From contig VGFU01000006.1 of the NCBI GenBank assembly GCA_016868755.1, positions 1 through 64,000 of the forward strand: DNA of 64,000 bases, in the 5' to 3' direction. Below are positions 4,040 to 62,642 of the stretch, piece after piece (positions within the stretch are counted from its first letter, which is position 1; each line of letters begins with the position of its first letter). Position numbers and translations under genes: made by a program. The notes under the pieces were generated by a model, which searched no databases, was not told the origin of the DNA, and saw only the letters and a program-made list of their open reading frames with translations. This DNA is from Bacteroidota bacterium (lineage in GTDB: Bacteria > Bacteroidota > Bacteroidia > Flavobacteriales > Schleiferiaceae).

Positions 4040-5382
4040 ACGGCCGAGGTTTGGGCGGGATCCGCAGCCGGCCGGGTGGCCACCGTGTCGCGCGGCGTGA
4101 GTTCGGTGAGTTCGACCCAGGCGCGGGTTCCGGCAAGCGCCGCATCGTAGTCGGCCTCGACCCGAATGTAGTTGTCGGTGTAGCCCAGCATGCGGCCGTC
4201 GCGCTCAGAATGCTCCCAGACCACGCGGCGCACGCTGCCCAGGTGCCGCTCGCAAAATTCGCGCTGCTTGATGGCGCTCAAGAGGCGCAGACGTCGGTTG
4301 CGCGCCTTGCGTTCGGTTTGCCGCACGACGCCTTCGAGGTGAACGGCCTCGGTTCCGGGCCGCTCCGAGTAGGTGAACACGTGGAGGTAGGCGATGGGGA
4401 GCGCCTCCAAAAAGCGGTAGGTATCGAGAAAGTGGTCTTCGGTTTCGCCCGGAAAGCCTACGATCACGTCAACCCCGATGGCCGCGTCGGGCATGCGGTC
4501 GATGATGCGGGCCACCCGCTCGGCGTACAGCTCGCGGCGGTAGCGGCGCTTCATCCAGCCCAGCACCTCGTTGTTGCCGCTCTGCAGCGGAATATGGAAG
4601 TGCGGAACCCAGCGCGCGCTCTGCGCCGTGAAGTCGATGATTTCGTCGCGAAGCAGGTTGGGTTCGATGCTCGAAATCCGAAGCCGGTCCAGCCCGTCCA
4701 CCTGGTCAAGCGCCTGCACGAGCTCGCTGAAGGTGTGGTCGTGGCGCTTGTTGCCGTGTTCGCCTTTGCCGTAGTCACCGACGTTGACCCCGGTCAGCAC
4801 CACCTCGAGCACGCCTTGTGCGGCCAGTTCGCGGGCCTGCGCCACCACCTGGTCAAGTGGGGCGGAGCGGCTCACGCCGCGGGCCATCGGTATCGTGCAG
4901 TAGGTGCAGACGTAGTCGCATCCGTCCTGTACCTTTAAGAAGGCGCGGGTGCGGTCGCCCATGCTGTAGGCGGCGTGGTACTGGTCGACGTCGTGGATTT
5001 CGCAGGCGTGGACCTCGGCCTCGGGCCGCTTGCGCAGGTCGCTCAAAAACTGCCTGAGAAAAGGTTTTTCTTTAGCACCAAGCACCAAATCTACCCCCTC
5101 CATGGCTGCGATTTCGCTGGGGCGCAGCTGGGCGTAGCATCCCGTAATCACGATAAAGCACTCGGGGTTGGCGCGCAGAGCTTGGCGCACGAGTCCGCGG
5201 GTCTCCTTGTCCGCTTCTTGGGTCACCGAGCAGGTGTTGATCACGGCTACGTCAGCGGCCTCCTCAAAGTCGGTGCGCACGAAGCCGGCGGCATATAAAT
5301 CGCGGGCCAGCGTGCTGGTTTCGGCAAAATTGAGCTTGCACCCAAGGGTGTGAAACGAAGCGCGAAGTCCGGCGGGATGCAT
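4036..5382 (-). CDS. mtaB: tRNA (t6A37) methylthiotransferase MtaB
   Basis: Radical SAM enzyme that converts t6A to ms2t6A at position 37 of ANN-decoding tRNAs. The 448-residue protein has the N-terminal UPF0004 domain with its three cluster cysteines (TLGCKLN with Cys15, NTCSVT, GCYAQL), then the radical-SAM cluster motif GCDYVCTYCTIPMARG, then a C-terminal TRAM-like region ending near ELTPRD. It heads the mtaB-suhB-rfbC-mltD-uvrA run. A near-match -7 box (TATTTTCG) sits 4 nt upstream of the ATG, supporting this start. The substrate t6A depends on TsaC, encoded at 24790-25743. Confidence 0.93.
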   Translation of the reverse strand: MHPAGLRASFHTLGCKLNFAETSTLARDLYAAGFVRTDFEEAADVAVINTCSVTQEADKETRGLVRQALRANPECFIVITGCYAQLRPSEIAAMEGVDLVLGAKEKPFLRQFLSDLRKRPEAEVHACEIHDVDQYHAAYSMGDRTRAFLKVQDGCDYVCTYCTIPMARGVSRSAPLDQVVAQARELAAQGVLEVVLTGVNVGDYGKGEHGNKRHDHTFSELVQALDQVDGLDRLRISSIEPNLLRDEIIDFTAQSARWVPHFHIPLQSGNNEVLGWMKRRYRRELYAERVARIIDRMPDAAIGVDVIVGFPGETEDHFLDTYRFLEALPIAYLHVFTYSERPGTEAVHLEGVVRQTERKARNRRLRLLSAIKQREFCERHLGSVRRVVWEHSERDGRMLGYTDNYIRVEADYDAALAGTRAWVELTELTPRDTVATRPAADPAQTSAV

Positions 5383-5424: not shown

Positions 5425-7059
5425 ATGCTTCGTTTTGCTCGGAATTCTGCGCGCCTAGTGCGCCATCTCGCGGTCGGCGCGTTGGCCCTGGTTGCCCTGC
5501 AGTGCCGAACCGAGCCTAAGGAGGACGAGGGACTGCTCTTTCGCTACAACGAGGCCAGCGGAATTTCGTCGCTCGACCCCGCCTTTGCCCGCGATCAAGC
5601 CCACAACTGGGTCATTCGCCAGCTCTACACCACGTTGTTTGAGACCGACTCTTCGGGCCAGCTGCGCGGACTCCTCGCCGAGGCCTGGGGCAGCGCCGCC
5701 GACGGACGAAGCGCGGGAATCCGCATTCGCCGCGACTTTGCCGCCCACGACGACCCCTGCTTTGAAGGCCAAACGCACTACCTCGACGCCCACGACGTCG
5801 CCAGCAGCCTGCAGCGCCTCAAAAGCCCGGCAACGGCTTCGCCCGGAGCGTGGCTGCTCGAAACCGTCGATTCGGTCTGGGCTGCGTCGACCGATTCGCT
5901 CGTGCTCACCTTGACGGCGCCCGATCCGGCGCTGTGGAGCAAGCTGAGCGTGCCCTACACGGCGGTGGTTCCGCGCCAAGCCATCGCCCGCTACGGCGCG
6001 GACCTCAGCGAGCACCCCGTGGGTTCCGGCCCATTTCAGTTCAAAGCGTGGCAGCGCGGCCAAAAGCTGGTCTTGCGGCGCCATCCCAACTACGCGGAGC
6101 GCGATGCCCAAGGGCAGCAATTGCCCTACCTCGAAGCGGTGAGCATTACGTTTACGCCTGACCGGCAGTCCGCGTTCATGGCATTTGTGCAGGGAGAACT
6201 CGACTTTTTGACGGGCATCGACCCCACGTACAAAGACCAATGGCTCGAGGCCGACGGCAGCCTGAAGGCCCAGTGGCGCGACCAATTCACGCAACGCACC
6301 GCCCCCTTTCTCAACACGGAATTTCTGGTGGTGCGCTACGGTCCCTGCAATCCGAGCTACCTCGCCGACGTAAGGGTGCGGCGGGCCCTCAACTGGGCGG
6401 TGGACCGCGACGGAATCATTGGCTACCTCAAAAACGGCATGGGCGTTCCCGCTCATGGCGGAATTTTACCCGCCGGCATGCCCGGCTATCGACCCGCGGC
6501 GGATTGGGCAACGCCCTGGAGCTACCGACCTGATTCTGCCCGCATTCTGCTTCAGCAGGCCGGCATTCTAACCCCCGACGGGCGCCCCAAGCCCGGAATC
6601 CAACCCCTCGTCTTGAGCACCACCGCCTCGTACCGCGACGTCGCTGAATTTTTGCAAAGTTCTTGGACCCAACTTGGGTTACCCGTCGAAGTGCAGGTGC
6701 TGCCGTCGGCCACCTTTCGCGAAGACAAAGCCCAGGGACGCCTCGGACTCTACCGGGCGAGCTGGATTGCCGACTACCCCGACCCGAGCAACTACCTCAT
6801 GCTCTACGGCGAATCGGGCGGCCCCAACGTTAGCGGATTCAGCGGGTTAACCGGTTACAACACTTTTCGCGCGGAATCTGATCCCTCCAAACGCACCCAG
6901 CAGGCCGCCCAGCTCGACGCCGAGCTTCACCGTCAGGCCGTCCTTATTCCGCTCTTTTACGACGTCAGCCTCAGGGCTTGGCCCAAGGAGTGGGGGGGTC
7001 CGCCGCCGCACCCCATGAATGAATTGGATTTGCGCAGGGTGCGCAAAAGCAGTAACTAG
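5425..7059 (+). CDS. ABC transporter substrate-binding protein, family 5 (DppA/OppA type)
   Basis: Predicted periplasmic or membrane-anchored binding protein for peptides or similar solutes. From the ATG at 5425 it has 544 residues: a basic N-terminus, a hydrophobic segment ending in LVALQC (a poor lipobox, so lipoprotein status is uncertain), then SBP family 5 features such as SSLDPAFA, the GSGPFQFKAW segment, RVRRALNWAVDRDGII and a C-terminal DYPDPSNYL stretch. No permease or ATPase genes lie beside it, so it is an orphan here. An upstream in-frame start at 5350 would overlap mtaB and place the promoter inside the gene. Its TAG stop (7057-7059) lies in a heptad repeat. Confidence 0.88.
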   Translation: MLRFARNSARLVRHLAVGALALVALQCRTEPKEDEGLLFRYNEASGISSLDPAFARDQAHNWVIRQLYTTLFETDSSGQLRGLLAEAWGSAADGRSAGIRIRRDFAAHDDPCFEGQTHYLDAHDVASSLQRLKSPATASPGAWLLETVDSVWAASTDSLVLTLTAPDPALWSKLSVPYTAVVPRQAIARYGADLSEHPVGSGPFQFKAWQRGQKLVLRRHPNYAERDAQGQQLPYLEAVSITFTPDRQSAFMAFVQGELDFLTGIDPTYKDQWLEADGSLKAQWRDQFTQRTAPFLNTEFLVVRYGPCNPSYLADVRVRRALNWAVDRDGIIGYLKNGMGVPAHGGILPAGMPGYRPAADWATPWSYRPDSARILLQQAGILTPDGRPKPGIQPLVLSTTASYRDVAEFLQSSWTQLGLPVEVQVLPSATFREDKAQGRLGLYRASWIADYPDPSNYLMLYGESGGPNVSGFSGLTGYNTFRAESDPSKRTQQAAQLDAELHRQAVLIPLFYDVSLRAWPKEWGGPPPHPMNELDLRRVRKSSN

Positions 7060-7073
7060 CAGCTAGCAACTAG
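7053..7073. repeat. CTAG heptad repeat, three units (TAACTAG CAGCTAG CAACTAG)
   Basis: Three tandem 7-mers at 7053, 7060 and 7067 between convergent genes. CTAG reads the same on both strands and the period of 7 shifts frame each time, so TAG occurs in all three frames on both strands. The stops of the SBP gene (7057-7059) and of the minus-strand EEP gene (7072-7070) are both inside it. Confidence 0.85.
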
Positions 7074-8113
7074 TTGCCTGAAATGGCCACCCGCACCGGG
7101 TTGTGGTCGCTCCACTTTTGCTTGACCACCTGGTGTTCGAGGGCAACCCAGGGTCCGCTGGTCCAAACCCAGTCAATTCGCAGCGGAACGACGCGCAGTC
7201 CCCGGTAGGTACTGCCCCAGCCGGCGCCCGACTGCACGAAGCTGTCGCGGCCCAGCTCTCGGAGCCTTCGGTGGCTCGCTGAGGTGGGGCTGTCGTTGAA
7301 ATCGCCGAGCACCACGACCGGCCGAGGGCTGGCGGACCACCATTCGGCAAGCGCTTCGACTTGAACGGAACGGGGCTCCGCCCGCCGAACCATGCGGCGG
7401 AGCAAGAGCTTGGCGCTTTGCCACCATCCAGCTTTGGCCTGTTCTGACTGGGCCTCACGCAGGTCTACGTCGGTGCTCACCAAGTGCACGTTCACGACCC
7501 GCACGGTGTCGCCCGCGGGCAGGAGCAGGTCGGCCCAAAGAAACCCAATGCGACCCGAATCCCCGGGGTAATCCACTTGGTCCCACTGCACGATGGGGTA
7601 GCGGCTGTACAGCGCTAAATCGTAGGCCTCTACGCGGTGCGTGAACTCAGCCCTAAGGAACGATTCGGCAGCGGTGCCGCGGCGCACGTCCTGCAGCGCC
7701 AGTACGTCGACGTCAAGATCCACCGCAAACTGTGCCATTTCGTGCACGGTTGCCGAATCGTCGGTCCACGTGCGGTTGCGCCAGTGGTGCACGTTCCACG
7801 ACGCCATCGAAACCTGCGGGTCGCGGGTCGGAGCAGCCGGTCGCCGCACCTGCATCCAGCTGCCCATCGGAGTCCAGAGGAGGGCGAGCAAGGTTCCGCC
7901 CAAAAGGGCCGAGGGGTGAAGGTGGGCGGTGGCCATCATGCCCCAGCCCACATGGTACAGTACTAGATAGGGCAGCAGCAGGCTAAGCGGAGCCAGCAAC
8001 GCAACGTCCGTAGCCATGCCCAACCAAGCCAGCCCCGTTATGGGCAGGGCGAGCAGCTGCGGAATCCACCACAATCGGCGGCCCCACTTACTTTTTTTGG
8101 CTGTGGCGCGCAA
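7070..8113 (-). CDS. Membrane-anchored endonuclease/exonuclease/phosphatase family protein
   Basis: The 347-residue protein has about three N-terminal hydrophobic segments (residues 15-85) and then an EEP phosphodiesterase domain: MASWNVHHW, VLALQDVR (Asp where Glu is more usual), VRVVNVHLVS, VVLGDFND and a terminal KWSDHNPV. These are the metal and catalytic motifs of the DNase I/exonuclease III/sphingomyelinase fold; the substrate is unknown. The start at 8113 is a TTG inside the rhomboid 3' end (26-nt overlap), so the precise start is uncertain. It ends the mutL-rhomboid-rhomboid-EEP run, and its last residues GN and stop are written by the heptad repeat. Confidence 0.85.
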   Translation of the reverse strand: MRATAKKSKWGRRLWWIPQLLALPITGLAWLGMATDVALLAPLSLLLPYLVLYHVGWGMMATAHLHPSALLGGTLLALLWTPMGSWMQVRRPAAPTRDPQVSMASWNVHHWRNRTWTDDSATVHEMAQFAVDLDVDVLALQDVRRGTAAESFLRAEFTHRVEAYDLALYSRYPIVQWDQVDYPGDSGRIGFLWADLLLPAGDTVRVVNVHLVSTDVDLREAQSEQAKAGWWQSAKLLLRRMVRRAEPRSVQVEALAEWWSASPRPVVVLGDFNDSPTSASHRRLRELGRDSFVQSGAGWGSTYRGLRVVPLRIDWVWTSGPWVALEHQVVKQKWSDHNPVRVAISGN

Positions 8114-37079: not shown

Positions 37080-39695
37080 ATGGAAATTCCTTCGCAGTAC
37101 GCTCCGCGCCAGGTTGAACAACGCTGGTACCAAACATGGCTTAAGCACAGGGCTTTTGCTTCGACACCTGACCACCGTCCGGCCTACACGATTGTGATTC
37201 CACCGCCGAACGTTACGGGGGTGCTGCACATGGGCCACATGCTCAACAACACCATTCAGGACGTGCTGGTCCGCCGGGCCCGCATGCGCGGATTCAATGC
37301 CTGCTGGGTTCCGGGAACGGACCATGCGTCGATCGCCACCGAGGCCAAGGTGGTGCAAAAGCTCCGCGCCGAAGGCATTAAAAAGTCGGACCTCAGCCGC
37401 GACGCCTTTTTGGAGCACGCTTGGGAGTGGACGCACAAGCACGGCGGAATCATTCTCGAGCAGCTCAAAGAGCTTGGCGCCAGCTGCGATTGGGACCGCA
37501 ACGCCTTCACTATGGACGAAGTGCGCAGCGACAGCGTCTACCACGTCTTTGCAGACCTTCACGCCAAGGGCTACATCTACCGCGGACTCCGCATGGTTCA
37601 CTGGGACCCCGAGGCGAAAACCTCGCTTTCCGACGAAGAGGTCATCCACAAGGACATCAATGCGACCCTGTACTACGTGAAGTACGAGGTGGTCGAACAG
37701 CCCGGAACGTTTTTAACCGTCGCCACCTCTCGCCCTGAAACCATCATGGGCGACGTGGCCGTGGCCATTAACCCCAAGGATGCGCGCTACACCGAGCTGC
37801 ACGGAAAGCACGTTCGGGTTCCGGTGGGCGGACGCGAGGTGCCCATCATCCTCGACGACTACGTCACCACGGAATTTGGAACCGGCTGCCTCAAAGTGAC
37901 GCCGGCCCACGACTGGAACGACTACGCGATCGGCCAAAAGCACGGCCTCGAGGTGCTCGACGTGCTCAACGAAGACGGAACCCTCAGCGCCCACGGCCTC
38001 GAATACGCGGGTATGGAGCGCTTTGCCGCCCGCAAGAAGGTCGCCGAAGACCTTAAAGCCAGCGGATTCTTGGCCAAAACCGAAGAATACGCCTCTACAG
38101 TGGGAACCAGCGAGCGCACCGGCGCGGTGGTAGAACCCCGCCTTTCGCTGCAGTGGTGGGTGCGCATGCCCGAGCTGGCCAAGCCCGCGCTCGATGCGGT
38201 GATGACCGACGAGATTCAGCTCATCCCCGAGAAGTTCAAGAACACCTACCGCCACTGGATGGAGAACGTGAAGGACTGGTGCATTTCGCGCCAGCTCTGG
38301 TGGGGACACCGCATTCCGGCCTACTTCTACGGTCCCGGGGAGCACGATTATGTGGTTGCCTTGAGCGCCGAAGAGGCGCTCGAGAAGGCCCGCGCGGCCG
38401 CAGGGCGCGCGGATTTGACCGCCGCCGACCTTCAGCAAGACCCCGACTGCCTTGATACCTGGTTTTCTAGCTGGCTCTGGCCGCTGAGCGTCTTCGACGG
38501 CATCCGTAACCCCGAAAACCCAGAAATTCAGTACTACTACCCAACCCAGGACCTGGTCACGGCCCCCGAAATCCTCTTCTTTTGGGTGGCCCGCATGGCT
38601 ATGGCCGGCTACGAGTACGCCGGCAAACGTCCGTTCGAACGCGTCTACCTCACCGGCATCGTGCGCGACAAACTCGGGCGCAAAATGTCCAAGTCCCTGG
38701 GAAATTCGCCCGACCCCATCGGCCTCATGGAAACCTACGGGGCCGACGGCGTGCGCATGGGCATGCTCTTTACCTCTCCGGCGGGCAACGACCTCCCGTT
38801 TGACGAATCGCTGTGCGAGCAGGGCCGCAACTTCACCAACAAGGTTTGGAACGCCCTCCGCCTGGTCAAAGGCTGGAACGTGTCCGACGACGCCCCCGCC
38901 GACGAAGCCGCAGAATGGGCCGTAGCCTGGTTCCGCAGCCTGCTCGACGCCGAGCTGGCCGAGCTGCAGCGCGACTTTGACCGCTACGCCCTATCGGAGG
39001 CTTTAATGCGCCTCTACAAGCTCACCTGGAACAGCTTCTGCGCCTGGTACCTCGAGCTCGTGAAGCCCGCCTACGGCCAACCGATCTCGCCCCGCATCTA
39101 CCAAGCGACCGTCGGGTACTTCGAAACGCTCATGACGGCCCTGCATCCCTTCATGCCCTTCCTCACCGAAGAGGTTTGGCACCTGCTGTCGGAGCGCTTG
39201 GAGTCCGACTTCCTCGACTTTGCCGCGTATCCAACTTCGGGCGGAACCGCCCACGACCCCTCCACCTTCGCCATCATGGAGGAGCACGTGGTCGCCCTGC
39301 GCACCTTTAGGGCCGAGAAAAACATCGCCTTCAAGTCGCCCCTCACCGCCGACGCGGCCACCAAGCCTTCAGCGTGGTCCGCCATTGCCAAACTCACCAA
39401 CACCCAGTGGGGTGATGCCCAGGGCGGACTCCCGCTGCGCGCCGGCACCGCCGAGCTGCGCGTGCTCGTAGCCGCTGACGACATCGACGTCAAAGCCGAA
39501 ATCACCAAGGCCCAAAAGGAAATCGAGTACTACAGCGGCTTTAAGCGAAGCGTGGAGGCCAAGCTGTCCAACGAAAAATTCGTGAGTGGAGCGCCCGCTT
39601 CGGTCGTCGACGCCGAGCGCAAAAAACTCGCCGACGCCGAGGCTAAAATTGAAATCGCGCAGAAGCTGATTAGCCAACTGGCAGCTAGCAACTAG
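37080..39695 (+). CDS. valS: Valine--tRNA ligase
   Basis: Class I aminoacyl-tRNA synthetase charging tRNA-Val, 871 residues from ATG 37080. Seen: MEIPSQYAPRQVEQRWYQTW, the HIGH-type motif NVTGVLHMGHMLNN, the CP1 editing domain with TSRPETIMGDVAVAI and HDWNDYAIG, CLDTWFSSWLWPLSVF, KMSKSLGNSPDPIG (KMSKS), the anticodon-binding domain and a C-terminal coiled-coil arm (EIEYYSGFKRSVEAKL). The frame is open upstream to 36534, but that part shadows the DUF1573 gene. The last residues AASN and the stop are encoded by the heptad repeat at 39682. Confidence 0.97.
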   Translation: MEIPSQYAPRQVEQRWYQTWLKHRAFASTPDHRPAYTIVIPPPNVTGVLHMGHMLNNTIQDVLVRRARMRGFNACWVPGTDHASIATEAKVVQKLRAEGIKKSDLSRDAFLEHAWEWTHKHGGIILEQLKELGASCDWDRNAFTMDEVRSDSVYHVFADLHAKGYIYRGLRMVHWDPEAKTSLSDEEVIHKDINATLYYVKYEVVEQPGTFLTVATSRPETIMGDVAVAINPKDARYTELHGKHVRVPVGGREVPIILDDYVTTEFGTGCLKVTPAHDWNDYAIGQKHGLEVLDVLNEDGTLSAHGLEYAGMERFAARKKVAEDLKASGFLAKTEEYASTVGTSERTGAVVEPRLSLQWWVRMPELAKPALDAVMTDEIQLIPEKFKNTYRHWMENVKDWCISRQLWWGHRIPAYFYGPGEHDYVVALSAEEALEKARAAAGRADLTAADLQQDPDCLDTWFSSWLWPLSVFDGIRNPENPEIQYYYPTQDLVTAPEILFFWVARMAMAGYEYAGKRPFERVYLTGIVRDKLGRKMSKSLGNSPDPIGLMETYGADGVRMGMLFTSPAGNDLPFDESLCEQGRNFTNKVWNALRLVKGWNVSDDAPADEAAEWAVAWFRSLLDAELAELQRDFDRYALSEALMRLYKLTWNSFCAWYLELVKPAYGQPISPRIYQATVGYFETLMTALHPFMPFLTEEVWHLLSERLESDFLDFAAYPTSGGTAHDPSTFAIMEEHVVALRTFRAEKNIAFKSPLTADAATKPSAWSAIAKLTNTQWGDAQGGLPLRAGTAELRVLVAADDIDVKAEITKAQKEIEYYSGFKRSVEAKLSNEKFVSGAPASVVDAERKKLADAEAKIEIAQKLISQLAASN

Positions 39696-39702
39696 CTGCT
39701 AG
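39682..39702. repeat. CTAG heptad repeat, three units (CAGCTAG CAACTAG CTGCTAG)
   Basis: Tandem 7-mers at 39682, 39689 and 39696 between convergent valS and rlmB. TAG falls in all three frames on both strands. The valS stop (39693-39695) and the rlmB stop on the minus strand (39701-39699) are both inside. Confidence 0.85.
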
Positions 39703-46800: not shown

Positions 46801-47002
46801 GGTGCGCATTCCAGTTGGCGAAGGTGACGCGACGTTGACGCTGCGCAGCATGGACGGACGCCTCGTTCGTCGGATCGACTTCAAGAACACGGTAGGAGCC
46901 AAGGCAGTGCCGATGCAGCTCGAGGGCTTGCCCAAGGGCCAGTACATCTTGACCCGTTCGCAGGGCGGAACGGCCGTAAGCGAGGTCCTGATCAAGCGAT
47001 AA
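43886..47002 (+). CDS. Secreted VPS10/BNR-repeat protein with type IX sorting domain
   Basis: A 1038-residue cell-surface or secreted beta-propeller protein. The N-terminus has a signal-like segment (FAILGGSGALLAGAAAFLTL). BNR-type repeats recur, e.g. STNGGASWTVVS, TTDGGTTWTQLL, TTDGGATWSRIG, SNNHGATWFERN, SDDEGEGWATF, as in sortilin/VPS10 and photosystem assembly-type propellers. The last about 75 residues (SLGIYPNPATDVVRIP ... GLPKGQYILTRSQGG, ending LIKR) are a type A T9SS C-terminal signal. Substrate or ligand is unknown. It has a strong terminator and no co-directional neighbours downstream. ATG 43892 is an alternative start. Confidence 0.9.
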   Translation: MKMNRTRLFAILGGSGALLAGAAAFLTLNTGTDRQYQFRGEGAQASFAGYNDYMNMLRVNQVTGEIDPAAVQAAWTQLLQTAQKTNTLNWETRGPDNHGGRTRSLLVSRANSNIVYAGSVGGGLYRSTNGGASWTVVSDPGANQSVASICQAANGDIYYGTGEIWMGYGGTGQNTTPNFAGRGVYKSTDGINFVQLPSTLPVNNSGSAAWTAVADLEAHPTDAGTLYAATNNGLMKTTDGGTTWTQLLSGGITDFAISKTGTLYVNQAGRTMKSVDGSTFTEVSQAVQSPTALPRRSGGRIRYTVSPQDENYVYCVQTSGSQLAGVYRTTDGGATWSRIGQRSNNFDPLCNGVGAGRYCQGIWDLLLTVSAKDKDKIWLGGITVWSWSTSEGWVQASTLNDFAQNPFYLHADSHELLVDPKNPDVIFTSNDGGVFKSNNHGATWFERNLGYNTYQYFGFGVGKDRKLLGGCQDNGTSYLDYTSVSPHGVKKVFGGDGGHSDISWLNPKVMFAETQNGNFYRSDDEGEGWATFNNGYMNLANQQGLQLSSWMMPFELWETTNDAQSHDTVRFQLLPGIRSMGFGDGVKRTFRGKITHPQAAAKFISNKLRIVAGPLTAVANANGVVSGDATGVFNADSGYFDITFSTPPIAEVILTCNVYLPVGSKVALKSAIGSLPVRATTTSRLDSGQVLKVQDPIQSMFFVGLTSHVTASFPKIGGIFMTRDVHDFSKTPDWWQIAHFGNGITPHYMKISNDGNHLFVSTSNGRLYRISNLQAVRRANQAFIDSANYALTVTQIGNWTGRVVTGIDVDPNDANRVAVSLGNYGNSAYVYLSTNALSGTPSFQSKQGDLPTMPCYSVSFDKGNANRLLVGSEWGVFMTDNLSSTMPTYSEENNGMARVPVFEIEQYRTDFLYDPNNPISSPTEGDIFIATHGRGWFQTTTTSVNRPLGNSNDEVVKTKESLGIYPNPATDVVRIPVGEGDATLTLRSMDGRLVRRIDFKNTVGAKAVPMQLEGLPKGQYILTRSQGGTAVSEVLIKR

Positions 47003-47027
47003 GGTTTAGCGTACCGCTCGATATCTA

Positions 47028-47056
47028 AGGCCGCCCTTCTGGGGCGGTTTTTTTTT
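47028..47056 (+). terminator. Rho-independent terminator of the T9SS cargo gene
   Basis: CCGCCC-TTCTG-GGGCGG (47031-47047) with nine T following (47048-47056), 28 nt after the stop. Confidence 0.9.
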
Positions 47057-47071
47057 GCTTAAAGGTTTGCG

Positions 47072-47134
47072 AAACCAGCAACCAGCAGCCAGCAACCAGC
47101 AGCCAGCAACAAGCAGCCAGCAACAAGCAGCTCG
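47072..47134. repeat. Heptad repeat array, nine units (CAACCAG/CAGCCAG/CAACAAG)
   Basis: Nine 7-mers from 47072: AAACCAG, CAACCAG, CAGCCAG, CAACCAG, CAGCCAG, CAACAAG, CAGCCAG, CAACAAG, CAGCTCG. The units alternate CAAC and CAGC starts. They fit CARCNAG like the CTAG arrays, but carry C or A at position 5 and so lack stop codons. The array lies between two terminators facing each other. Confidence 0.85.
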
Positions 47135-47156
47135 TTGCCCGTCGATAGGTACTGGC

Positions 47157-47186
47157 AAAAAAAAAACCGCCCCAGGGGGCGGTTCC
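47157..47186 (-). terminator. Rho-independent terminator, minus strand, after the 47211-47903 gene
   Basis: Minus strand CCGCCC-CCTG-GGGCGG (47182-47167) followed by ten T (47166-47157), 25 nt past the stop at 47211. Confidence 0.9.
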
Positions 47187-47210
47187 TACCTACGGAAAAG
47201 GTTGCGGTCC

Positions 47211-60739: not shown

Positions 60740-61887
60740 TCCTTCTGACTGCTGCGCTGCTGGCGGCGTCGTGCGGAATCAAGCCATCGGCGCCCGCGCC
60801 GGCCAAACCCACGCGGGTCACCTTGACTACCGCCGAGGCCTTGGACGCCTCAGACACCGTGTGGATCACGGGCTACAACCCCGAGCTCGGCGGCTGGAAC
60901 GGCCGCGGAATCGCCATGAAGCGCACCGCCAGCCACGAATGGCAGGCCCAGTTCACTACCCGCGACAGCGCCATGGCCTTTAAGTTCACCTTGGGGTCTT
61001 GGGCCAAAGAAGCTCGATTGGCTTCGGGAGTTCCGTTTCGCGACGTGGCGGGCTACCGCGGAATGGACACCTCGTTTCACGCCCTGGCCTTCAGTGCGCC
61101 CCAGCGGGTCAACGACGGCCAGGTTACCGGGGTGCTCCAAGAGTTTTTGACGCCACCAGACCCCAAAGGACGCTTCCCGCAGCGCCCCATGTGGGTGTGG
61201 ACCTCAGCGCCCCTGAAGCCCGGACAGAAGTACGACCTGCTGTTGCTGTCGGACGGCCAAAACTGCTTTGATCCGGCCCAAACCAGCTTTGGGGTCGACT
61301 GGGCGGTCGACGAAGCCCTGACCCAGCTCGAGGCCGAGGGAGCGATTCCGCCCACGCTCGCCGTAGGGCTGCAGTGCTCGTTTGAGCCCGACAACCAGCG
61401 CCGCAAAGAATACGGCCCGGGCGAGGTCGGCGACGCCTACGCCGAATACCTGACGCAGACGGTGCTGCCCTGGATCCAATCCCAGTACACCCTTACCGAC
61501 CGCCGCGTCTTTGCGGGTTCGTCGATGGGCGGAATTTTAGGCTTTCGCCTGATGCACAGCTACCCGGAGCTTTGGAGCGGAATCGTATCGTTTTCTCCGG
61601 CCATCTTTGTTGAGACCGGCAGCGGACTGGTGGTCGACGGGCTCACCCCGTGGAAGGCCAAAAACTACGTTTGGCCCCAGGGCAAGCGCGCCTACTTCTA
61701 CAACGGCGGAGTGGGCCTCGACGCGGCCCTTCAGCCCGGAATCGACCGAATGCTCGAACAGCTAAAGGCCAATGGCTTAAAGCTGGGTACCGACTACCAA
61801 TGGAAGCTCGACGCCAAGGCCAACCACGACGAAATCGCGTGGCGCCAGCACTTTCCTGAAGCCTACCGGTGGGTAACTAGCCACTAG
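60715..61887 (+). CDS. Lipoprotein esterase (esterase D-like alpha/beta hydrolase)
   Basis: A 390-residue lipoprotein: signal ILILLTAALLAASC (Cys at about 20). An N-terminal carbohydrate-binding-like beta domain (VWITGYNPELGGWNGRGIAM, starch-binding CBM20/E-set type) precedes an esterase D domain with YDLLLLSDGQNCFDP, VFAGSSMGGILGFRL (nucleophile Ser) and a terminal HDEIAWRQHFPEAYRW (catalytic His). Similar proteins act on siderophores or short esters; the substrate here is unknown. Its last codons and TAG stop (61885-61887) lie in the heptad repeat. Confidence 0.88.
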   Translation: MGTTPRILILLTAALLAASCGIKPSAPAPAKPTRVTLTTAEALDASDTVWITGYNPELGGWNGRGIAMKRTASHEWQAQFTTRDSAMAFKFTLGSWAKEARLASGVPFRDVAGYRGMDTSFHALAFSAPQRVNDGQVTGVLQEFLTPPDPKGRFPQRPMWVWTSAPLKPGQKYDLLLLSDGQNCFDPAQTSFGVDWAVDEALTQLEAEGAIPPTLAVGLQCSFEPDNQRRKEYGPGEVGDAYAEYLTQTVLPWIQSQYTLTDRRVFAGSSMGGILGFRLMHSYPELWSGIVSFSPAIFVETGSGLVVDGLTPWKAKNYVWPQGKRAYFYNGGVGLDAALQPGIDRMLEQLKANGLKLGTDYQWKLDAKANHDEIAWRQHFPEAYRWVTSH

Positions 61888-61894
61888 CAACTAG
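61874..61894. repeat. CTAG heptad repeat, three units (TAACTAG CCACTAG CAACTAG)
   Basis: Tandem 7-mers at 61874, 61881 and 61888 at the esterase 3' end, facing the convergent peroxiredoxin gene. TAG lies in all frames on both strands; the esterase stop is in unit 2. Confidence 0.85.
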
Positions 61895-61901
61895 TCACAC
61901 G

Positions 61902-61965
61902 TTTCTGGCTTCTGGCATCTGGCTTGCGCGGCTTGGCGCGGTAACCAGAAGCAAGCAACGAGTAG
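61902..61965. repeat. Degenerate heptads and inverted segment between esterase and peroxiredoxin
   Basis: TTTCTGG, CTTCTGG, CATCTGG in tandem (61902-61922), then, after about 22 nt, CCAGAAG (61945) followed by CAAGCAA and CGAGTAG. CTTCTGG can pair with CCAGAAG. The 61888-61969 gap holds no gene. Confidence 0.5.
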
Positions 61966-62607: not shown

Positions 62608-62642
62608 CAGCTAGCAACTAGCAACTAGCCGCTAGCAACTTC
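62608..62642. repeat. CTAG heptad repeat, four units plus a partial (CAGCTAG CAACTAG CAACTAG CCGCTAG CAACTTC)
   Basis: Tandem 7-mers from 62608, right after the ZIP stop and upstream of the peroxiredoxin promoter on the minus strand. TAG lies in all frames on both strands. The last unit is degenerate and merges into the ZIP stop codon (62643-62641). Confidence 0.85.

Follow-up and report, generated by a model that had tools for sequence, protein, structure and literature searches.

Three tandem CTAG heptads occupy positions 7053 to 7073 of the window (the whole stretch of 64,000 nucleotides that was analysed), and such heptads really are enriched at gene ends in the host genome. These arrays are probably a lineage-specific heptanucleotide intergenic tandem repeat, of the class variously called LSSR, STRR or heptameric SSR, that arises by slippage and persists because the 3' ends of genes tolerate it. 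Three units can end translation in every frame of both strands, but this is most likely a side effect, not a designed device. The host itself appears to be a freshwater organism, judging from the lake names of some related Flavobacteriales/Cryomorphaceae MAGs.

CTAG heptad arrays in the window

By a codon model built for this analysis, which supplied the gene calls, 96% of the window is coding. Two genes meet within the array:

5458 to 7059, plus strand: gene for an extracellular solute-binding protein of family 5 (PF00496), with the array's first TAG (7057-7059) as its stop codon
7053 to 7073, no strand assigned: CTAG heptad array of 3 units (TAACTAG CAGCTAG CAACTAG), stopping six frames and containing the stop codons of both convergent genes
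7070 to 8074, minus strand: gene for an endonuclease/exonuclease/phosphatase-family protein (PF03372), with the array's last CTA (7070-7072) as its stop

The start of the solute-binding-protein gene at 5458 is the choice of the codon model, the longest open reading frame beginning at 5350. The earlier note on this DNA gave the coordinates and letters of the array exactly, but its consensus CARCTAG matches units 2 and 3 only, unit 1 being TAACTAG. It was right that three units stop all six frames: the TAG triplets starting at 7057, 7064 and 7071 each occupy a different frame, and no frame of the reverse strand stays open either. The note placed the array between two convergent genes; the pair is indeed convergent, but the array itself includes the stops of both.

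When all 21-mers of the window are scanned, six-frame stops within 21 bases are found at only 4 sites, namely 7053 and the three sites at which the note had reported recurrence (39682, 61874 and 62608). All three exist, with 3, 3 and 4 units, respectively, but the last lies between co-directional genes. Two further heptad arrays in the window are free of stops.

39682 to 39702, no strand assigned: CTAG heptad array, 3 units, containing the stops of a valyl-tRNA synthetase-like gene (plus strand) and a SpoU methylase gene (minus strand), with 3 bases between the two stops
47073 to 47129, no strand assigned: heptad array of about 8 CCAGCAR/CAAGCAG units in a convergent junction, stop-free in all six frames
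61874 to 61894, no strand assigned: CTAG heptad array, 3 units, whose second TAG ends an esterase-like gene (plus strand) converging with an AhpC/TSA gene (minus strand); only one gene's stop is included
61903 to 61925, no strand assigned: stop-free heptad array TTCTGGC x3, adjoining the CTAG array at 61874 to 61894 in one shared junction
62608 to 62635, no strand assigned: CTAG heptad array, 4 units, 5 bases after the TGA stop of a minus-strand gene and flanked by co-directional genes

At 47002-47210, between the convergent genes, a terminator-like hairpin stands on either side of the stop-free heptads; the two hairpins face each other and have long T and A runs.

Enrichment and position relative to genes

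Tandem 7-base units are present well above chance, mainly in intergenic DNA and at many dispersed loci. In the window, CTAGN3CTAG occurs 9 times against 0.21 expected, with none of 100 shuffles reaching this count, and no other combination of 4-mer and spacing (4 to 12) stands out as strongly as CTAG at 7; CTAG alone is depleted (65 against 103 expected). The whole genome (1.6 Mb in 70 contigs) holds 30 overlapping triple matches, against 0 for a reversed-pattern control.

The arrays lie close to stop codons, above all where convergent junctions are short, and are rare between divergent genes. Among 20 arrays of at least 3 CTAG units in DNA fetched from the host genome, part of which was fetched for its arrays, 13 are convergent and 7 co-directional, none being divergent or intragenic; most include the adjoining genes' own stop codons. 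The corresponding figures for sibling species are 23 convergent, 11 co-directional, 1 divergent and 1 at a contig end. The earlier note named, as grounds for giving up its claim, a lack of enrichment elsewhere in the genome and random location relative to gene ends and orientation; neither is what we found.

A fairer count is provided by the window and contiguous blocks, yet these blocks are on contigs known to carry arrays: convergent junctions with two or more CTAG heptads number 8 of 42, co-directional ones 6 of 211 and divergent ones 0 of 44 (convergent versus divergent, p = 0.002; convergent versus co-directional, p = 0.0004). Over the same stretches, convergent gaps have autocorrelation peaks at lags 7, 14, 21 and 28, and co-directional gaps have weaker ones at 7 and 21; divergent gaps and coding DNA have none. 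Coding DNA holds a single one of the 15 loci that have two or more CTAG units. In co-directional gaps, a count to which the sampling of array-bearing stretches also applies, all 14 of 14 CTAG arrays are closer to the upstream stop. By eye, the CAA/TTG orientation of the units has no consistent direction relative to the genes.

Unit composition and repeat period

In general, a unit consists of a CNAG or CTNG word, most often CTAG, and a spacer of 3 bases. The 7-base chains contain 194 CTAG, 46 CTGG, 45 CCAG, 22 CGAG, 16 CTTG, 13 CAAG and 10 CTCG units, i.e., CTAG makes up 57% in loci that were partly chosen for CTAG. The remaining 43% or so (CCAG, CTGG, CGAG and similar) carry no stop, and within a single array the unit drifts among CTAG, CTGG, CCAG, CGAG and other forms. 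Stop words are therefore not conserved across units, nor across arrays, two of those in the window being stop-free. Close to the stop, CTAG makes up about 0.6 of the units, and more than 50 bases away its share is down to 0.37.

Since 7 equals 1 modulo 3, any heptad with a stop word stops three frames after three units, and since CTAG is its own reverse complement, three CTAG heptads stop both strands, so that the six-frame property is automatic. Even a random heptad at 60% G+C is computed to stop six frames in 8% of cases and at least one strand in 36%, which means that the property needs no design; these figures alone leave the dominance of CTAG as the unit unexplained.

Four Flavobacteriales genomes have 24 intergenic tandem arrays of period 7 and 8 of period 8, compared with 1 for all other periods from 5 to 12, irrespective of the sequence: the units are as varied as CTAGCAT, TAGGGAT, TGAGATG and TGGTGGAT-like octads. 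Divergent gaps of these four genomes, pooled, contain 1 array against 7.4 expected (p = 0.005). Long, drifting intergenic arrays of period 7 or 8 and unrelated sequences are present at L192, L195 and L197 of genome G017 and at L250, L254 and L257 of G385, including telomere-like TAGGGAT and TGGTGGAT-like octads.

Distribution among relatives

CTAG heptads are found in 9 of 22 genomes of the genus (G000, which is the host genome, G041, G045, G047, G049, G050, G051, G055 and G056). Where the solute-binding protein is found in these genomes, it is 77-89% identical to that of the window, compared with near 50% in other genomes; the heptad-bearing clade A and its sister clade B are thus defined by protein identities and not by a tree. 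In part of clade B, the heptad is replaced by an octad (CTAGAGGG, CTAGGAAG), with 115 overlapping matches in G052, 26 in G048 and fewer in G043, G046 and G053. No genome of the genus combines heptads with octads. The octads, examined at loci L208-L222 of these five genomes, are likewise mostly close to stops. Several G052 contigs end inside CTAG octad arrays.

Order-wide, four tandem CTAG heptads are present in 31 of 396 Flavobacteriales genomes, with lineage-specific spacers. The earlier note knew of no such stop array in Bacteroidota, which for heptad arrays generally is incorrect, given that heptamer repeats have been reported from some Bacteroidetes (PMC4679880).

Orthologous junctions show how the arrays change. 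At the solute-binding-protein junction, the arrays of the window, L099 and L100 differ in 7-base steps; L101 has a decayed array, L102 an inverted repeat and L103 no array. In G041 (L118), a (TC)n dinucleotide run stands at this junction where the window has its CTAG array. Inverted repeats replace or accompany the heptads at some junctions, namely L102 (G050) and L139/L120 (the 61887 junction); examples are GTCAATAG...CTATTGAC and TTTCTGG units opposite CCAGAAA units, where one change looks compensatory by eye.

Terminators, TAG stops and alternative explanations

An unlikely explanation is that the arrays act at the level of transcription, as a 3'-end element in which a hairpin or the site of a putative CTAG-recognising protein would end or insulate converging transcripts. 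The placement at 3' ends and convergent junctions agrees with such a role, as do the inverted arrangements at some junctions (L099, L139, L102). Furthermore, among convergent gaps of at least 40 bases in the host genome, heptads are present in 2 of 14 with an intrinsic terminator versus 5 of 7 without one (p = 0.017); some of these stretches were fetched for their arrays, and the value falls to p = 0.07 once sibling loci, which were selected for arrays, are added, so that mutual exclusion of terminators and heptad arrays is only suggestive. Against a transcriptional element, the array at 7053-7073 is not a stable hairpin followed by a T run, the terminator scan found no terminator-like site at 6900-7300, Rfam has 0 matches in the window, and folding of array junctions, compared by z-scores, is no stronger than that of other convergent junctions (p = 0.29). 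Moreover, many arrays are direct repeats in a single orientation.

Rather unlikely, too, is the possibility that selection keeps CTAG and not the heptad, in which case the arrays would be a boundary, either translational on both strands or formed by a CTAG-binding protein, between converging genes in compact genomes. This reading draws on the persistence of CTAG while the period differs between sister lineages (7 versus 8), and on the strong enrichment of TAG stops at short convergent junctions, which holds outside the arrays too. In the host genome (window and L038-L051), TAG is the stop codon at 38 of 84 convergent ends (45%) versus 25 of 211 co-directional ends (12%), and without array loci at 28 of 71 versus 23 of 205. 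At short convergent junctions, the fraction is 28 of 48 in the host genome versus 6 of 38 in G053; three other Flavobacteriales genomes have a milder excess of TAG at convergent ends. Part of this excess may be remnants of decayed arrays.

We consider quite improbable the reading that the earlier note offered as one of two, a selected two-strand stop cassette that would halt readthrough or frameshifted ribosomes from converging genes before they enter antisense sequence. The TAG excess at short convergent junctions would fit, and so would the facts that the only six-frame-stopping 21-mers of the window are the four arrays and that arrays mostly include the stop of at least one flanking gene. 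The CTAG periods of the genus, 7 and 8, both shift the frame, and periods 6 and 9 are nearly absent from the family (2 and 4 matches, respectively, in 88 genomes). However, periods 10 and 11 would serve equally, yet CTAG at these periods is absent from the genus, and stop-free motifs use periods 7 and 8 too. A period of 7 is usual for intergenic repeats of bacteria, whichever sequence they have (PMC4692102, PMC4679880). The abundance of stop-free units, the stop-free arrays in like places, including the window, and the orthologous junctions that have a hairpin or nothing instead of an array further leave the device unsupported. Eubacteria have been found to lack selection for additional, back-up stops (PMC6764699); the cassette, if true, would be an exception.

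The other reading of the note, a mobile mini-repeat tolerated at 3' ends, survives in the tolerance but not in the mobility: insertion at many 3' ends is very improbable, for all the dispersal of the loci over the genome and their confinement to one lineage of the genus, given that the strong flank matches inspected between loci are further heptads and no longer element with defined ends is common to them, that orthologues differ in 7-base steps with no target duplication or other sign of insertion seen, and that the unit itself drifts.

Origin and persistence of the arrays

We thus return to slippage and tolerance as the probable explanation. Slippage or short tandem duplication would make and renew the arrays, and purifying selection would clear them from coding and promoter DNA, leaving survivors from the stop codon outwards. 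Six-frame stopping itself may aid survival, in that an array reaching into a reading frame would simply end it. In favour of this scenario are the period of 7 or 8 whatever the sequence, the drift of units, the 7-base steps between orthologues and the 3'-end position, as well as the heptad and octad clades and the order-wide CTAG heptads with lineage-specific spacers. The matching placement in Xanthomonas and Nostoc (PMC4692102) and the 7-base indels in cyanobacteria (PMC4679880) count in its favour too. We infer slippage from these patterns.

Three observations run counter to this explanation. Simple tolerance does not explain why CTAG is the dominant unit though it is depleted in the window; short convergent junctions have an excess of TAG stops even once array loci are set aside; and, weakly, the CTAG share declines away from the stop as a selected stop predicts. 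The difference of 7 versus 8 between sister lineages, together with the convergent TAG excess, makes a CTAG-based function testable.

Comparison with known repeats

REP/BIME palindromes also occupy 3' ends and the space between convergent genes, but their hairpins are longer and have fixed ends, and a transposase-like protein spreads them. The host arrays differ in having a 7-base tandem unit, with no shared longer element found. Spaced CTAG is also a feature of TrpR-type operators; this reading was dropped on account of the placement of the arrays at 3' ends.

The closest counterparts are the heptameric intergenic repeats GGGAATC of Xanthomonas and GGGGA(C/T)T of Nostoc, which lie near or overlap stop codons and are underrepresented both within coding sequence and in divergent intergenic regions (Rehm et al., 2015; PMC4692102). 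Like these, the host arrays are tandem 7-base intergenic units at or near stops, scarce in coding and divergent DNA, variable among close relatives and without a tie to mobile elements (PMC4692102). The Xanthomonas and Nostoc repeats are G-rich and quadruplex-capable, prefer four units and occur mainly at co-directional junctions (PMC4692102), whereas the host arrays have a CTAG-YWR unit without a G run, and favour convergent junctions.

The TAACTGA repeats, known also from some Bacteroidetes (MacGregor, 2015; PMC4679880), share with the host arrays a 7-base unit with stop words, 7-base indels between close strains and other heptamers intermixed. Most of those in Beggiatoaceae lie directly upstream of start codons (PMC4679880), whereas the host arrays follow stops and avoid divergent regions. 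The cyanobacterial STRR and long simple sequence repeats of 5-11 bases have other sequences and other hosts, but, as far as they are described in the accounts consulted, the heptanucleotide is likewise commonest and slippage has been proposed (PMC4679880, PMC4692102), the attribution of heptads to polymerase slippage going back to Mrazek et al. (2007), as cited in PMC4679880. A literature search on 7-bp repeats in Chryseobacterium and Flavobacterium found nothing.

With the present arrays, this known class of heptameric 3'-end repeats comes to include CTAG-based members from Flavobacteriales; new details are the 8-base CTAG repeat of the sister clade and the enrichment of TAG stops at short convergent junctions of the host genome. 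Xanthomonas, Nostoc and several Flavobacteriales genera are now seen to share one position rule, and the period of 7-8 regardless of sequence points to a mutational mechanism at gene ends.
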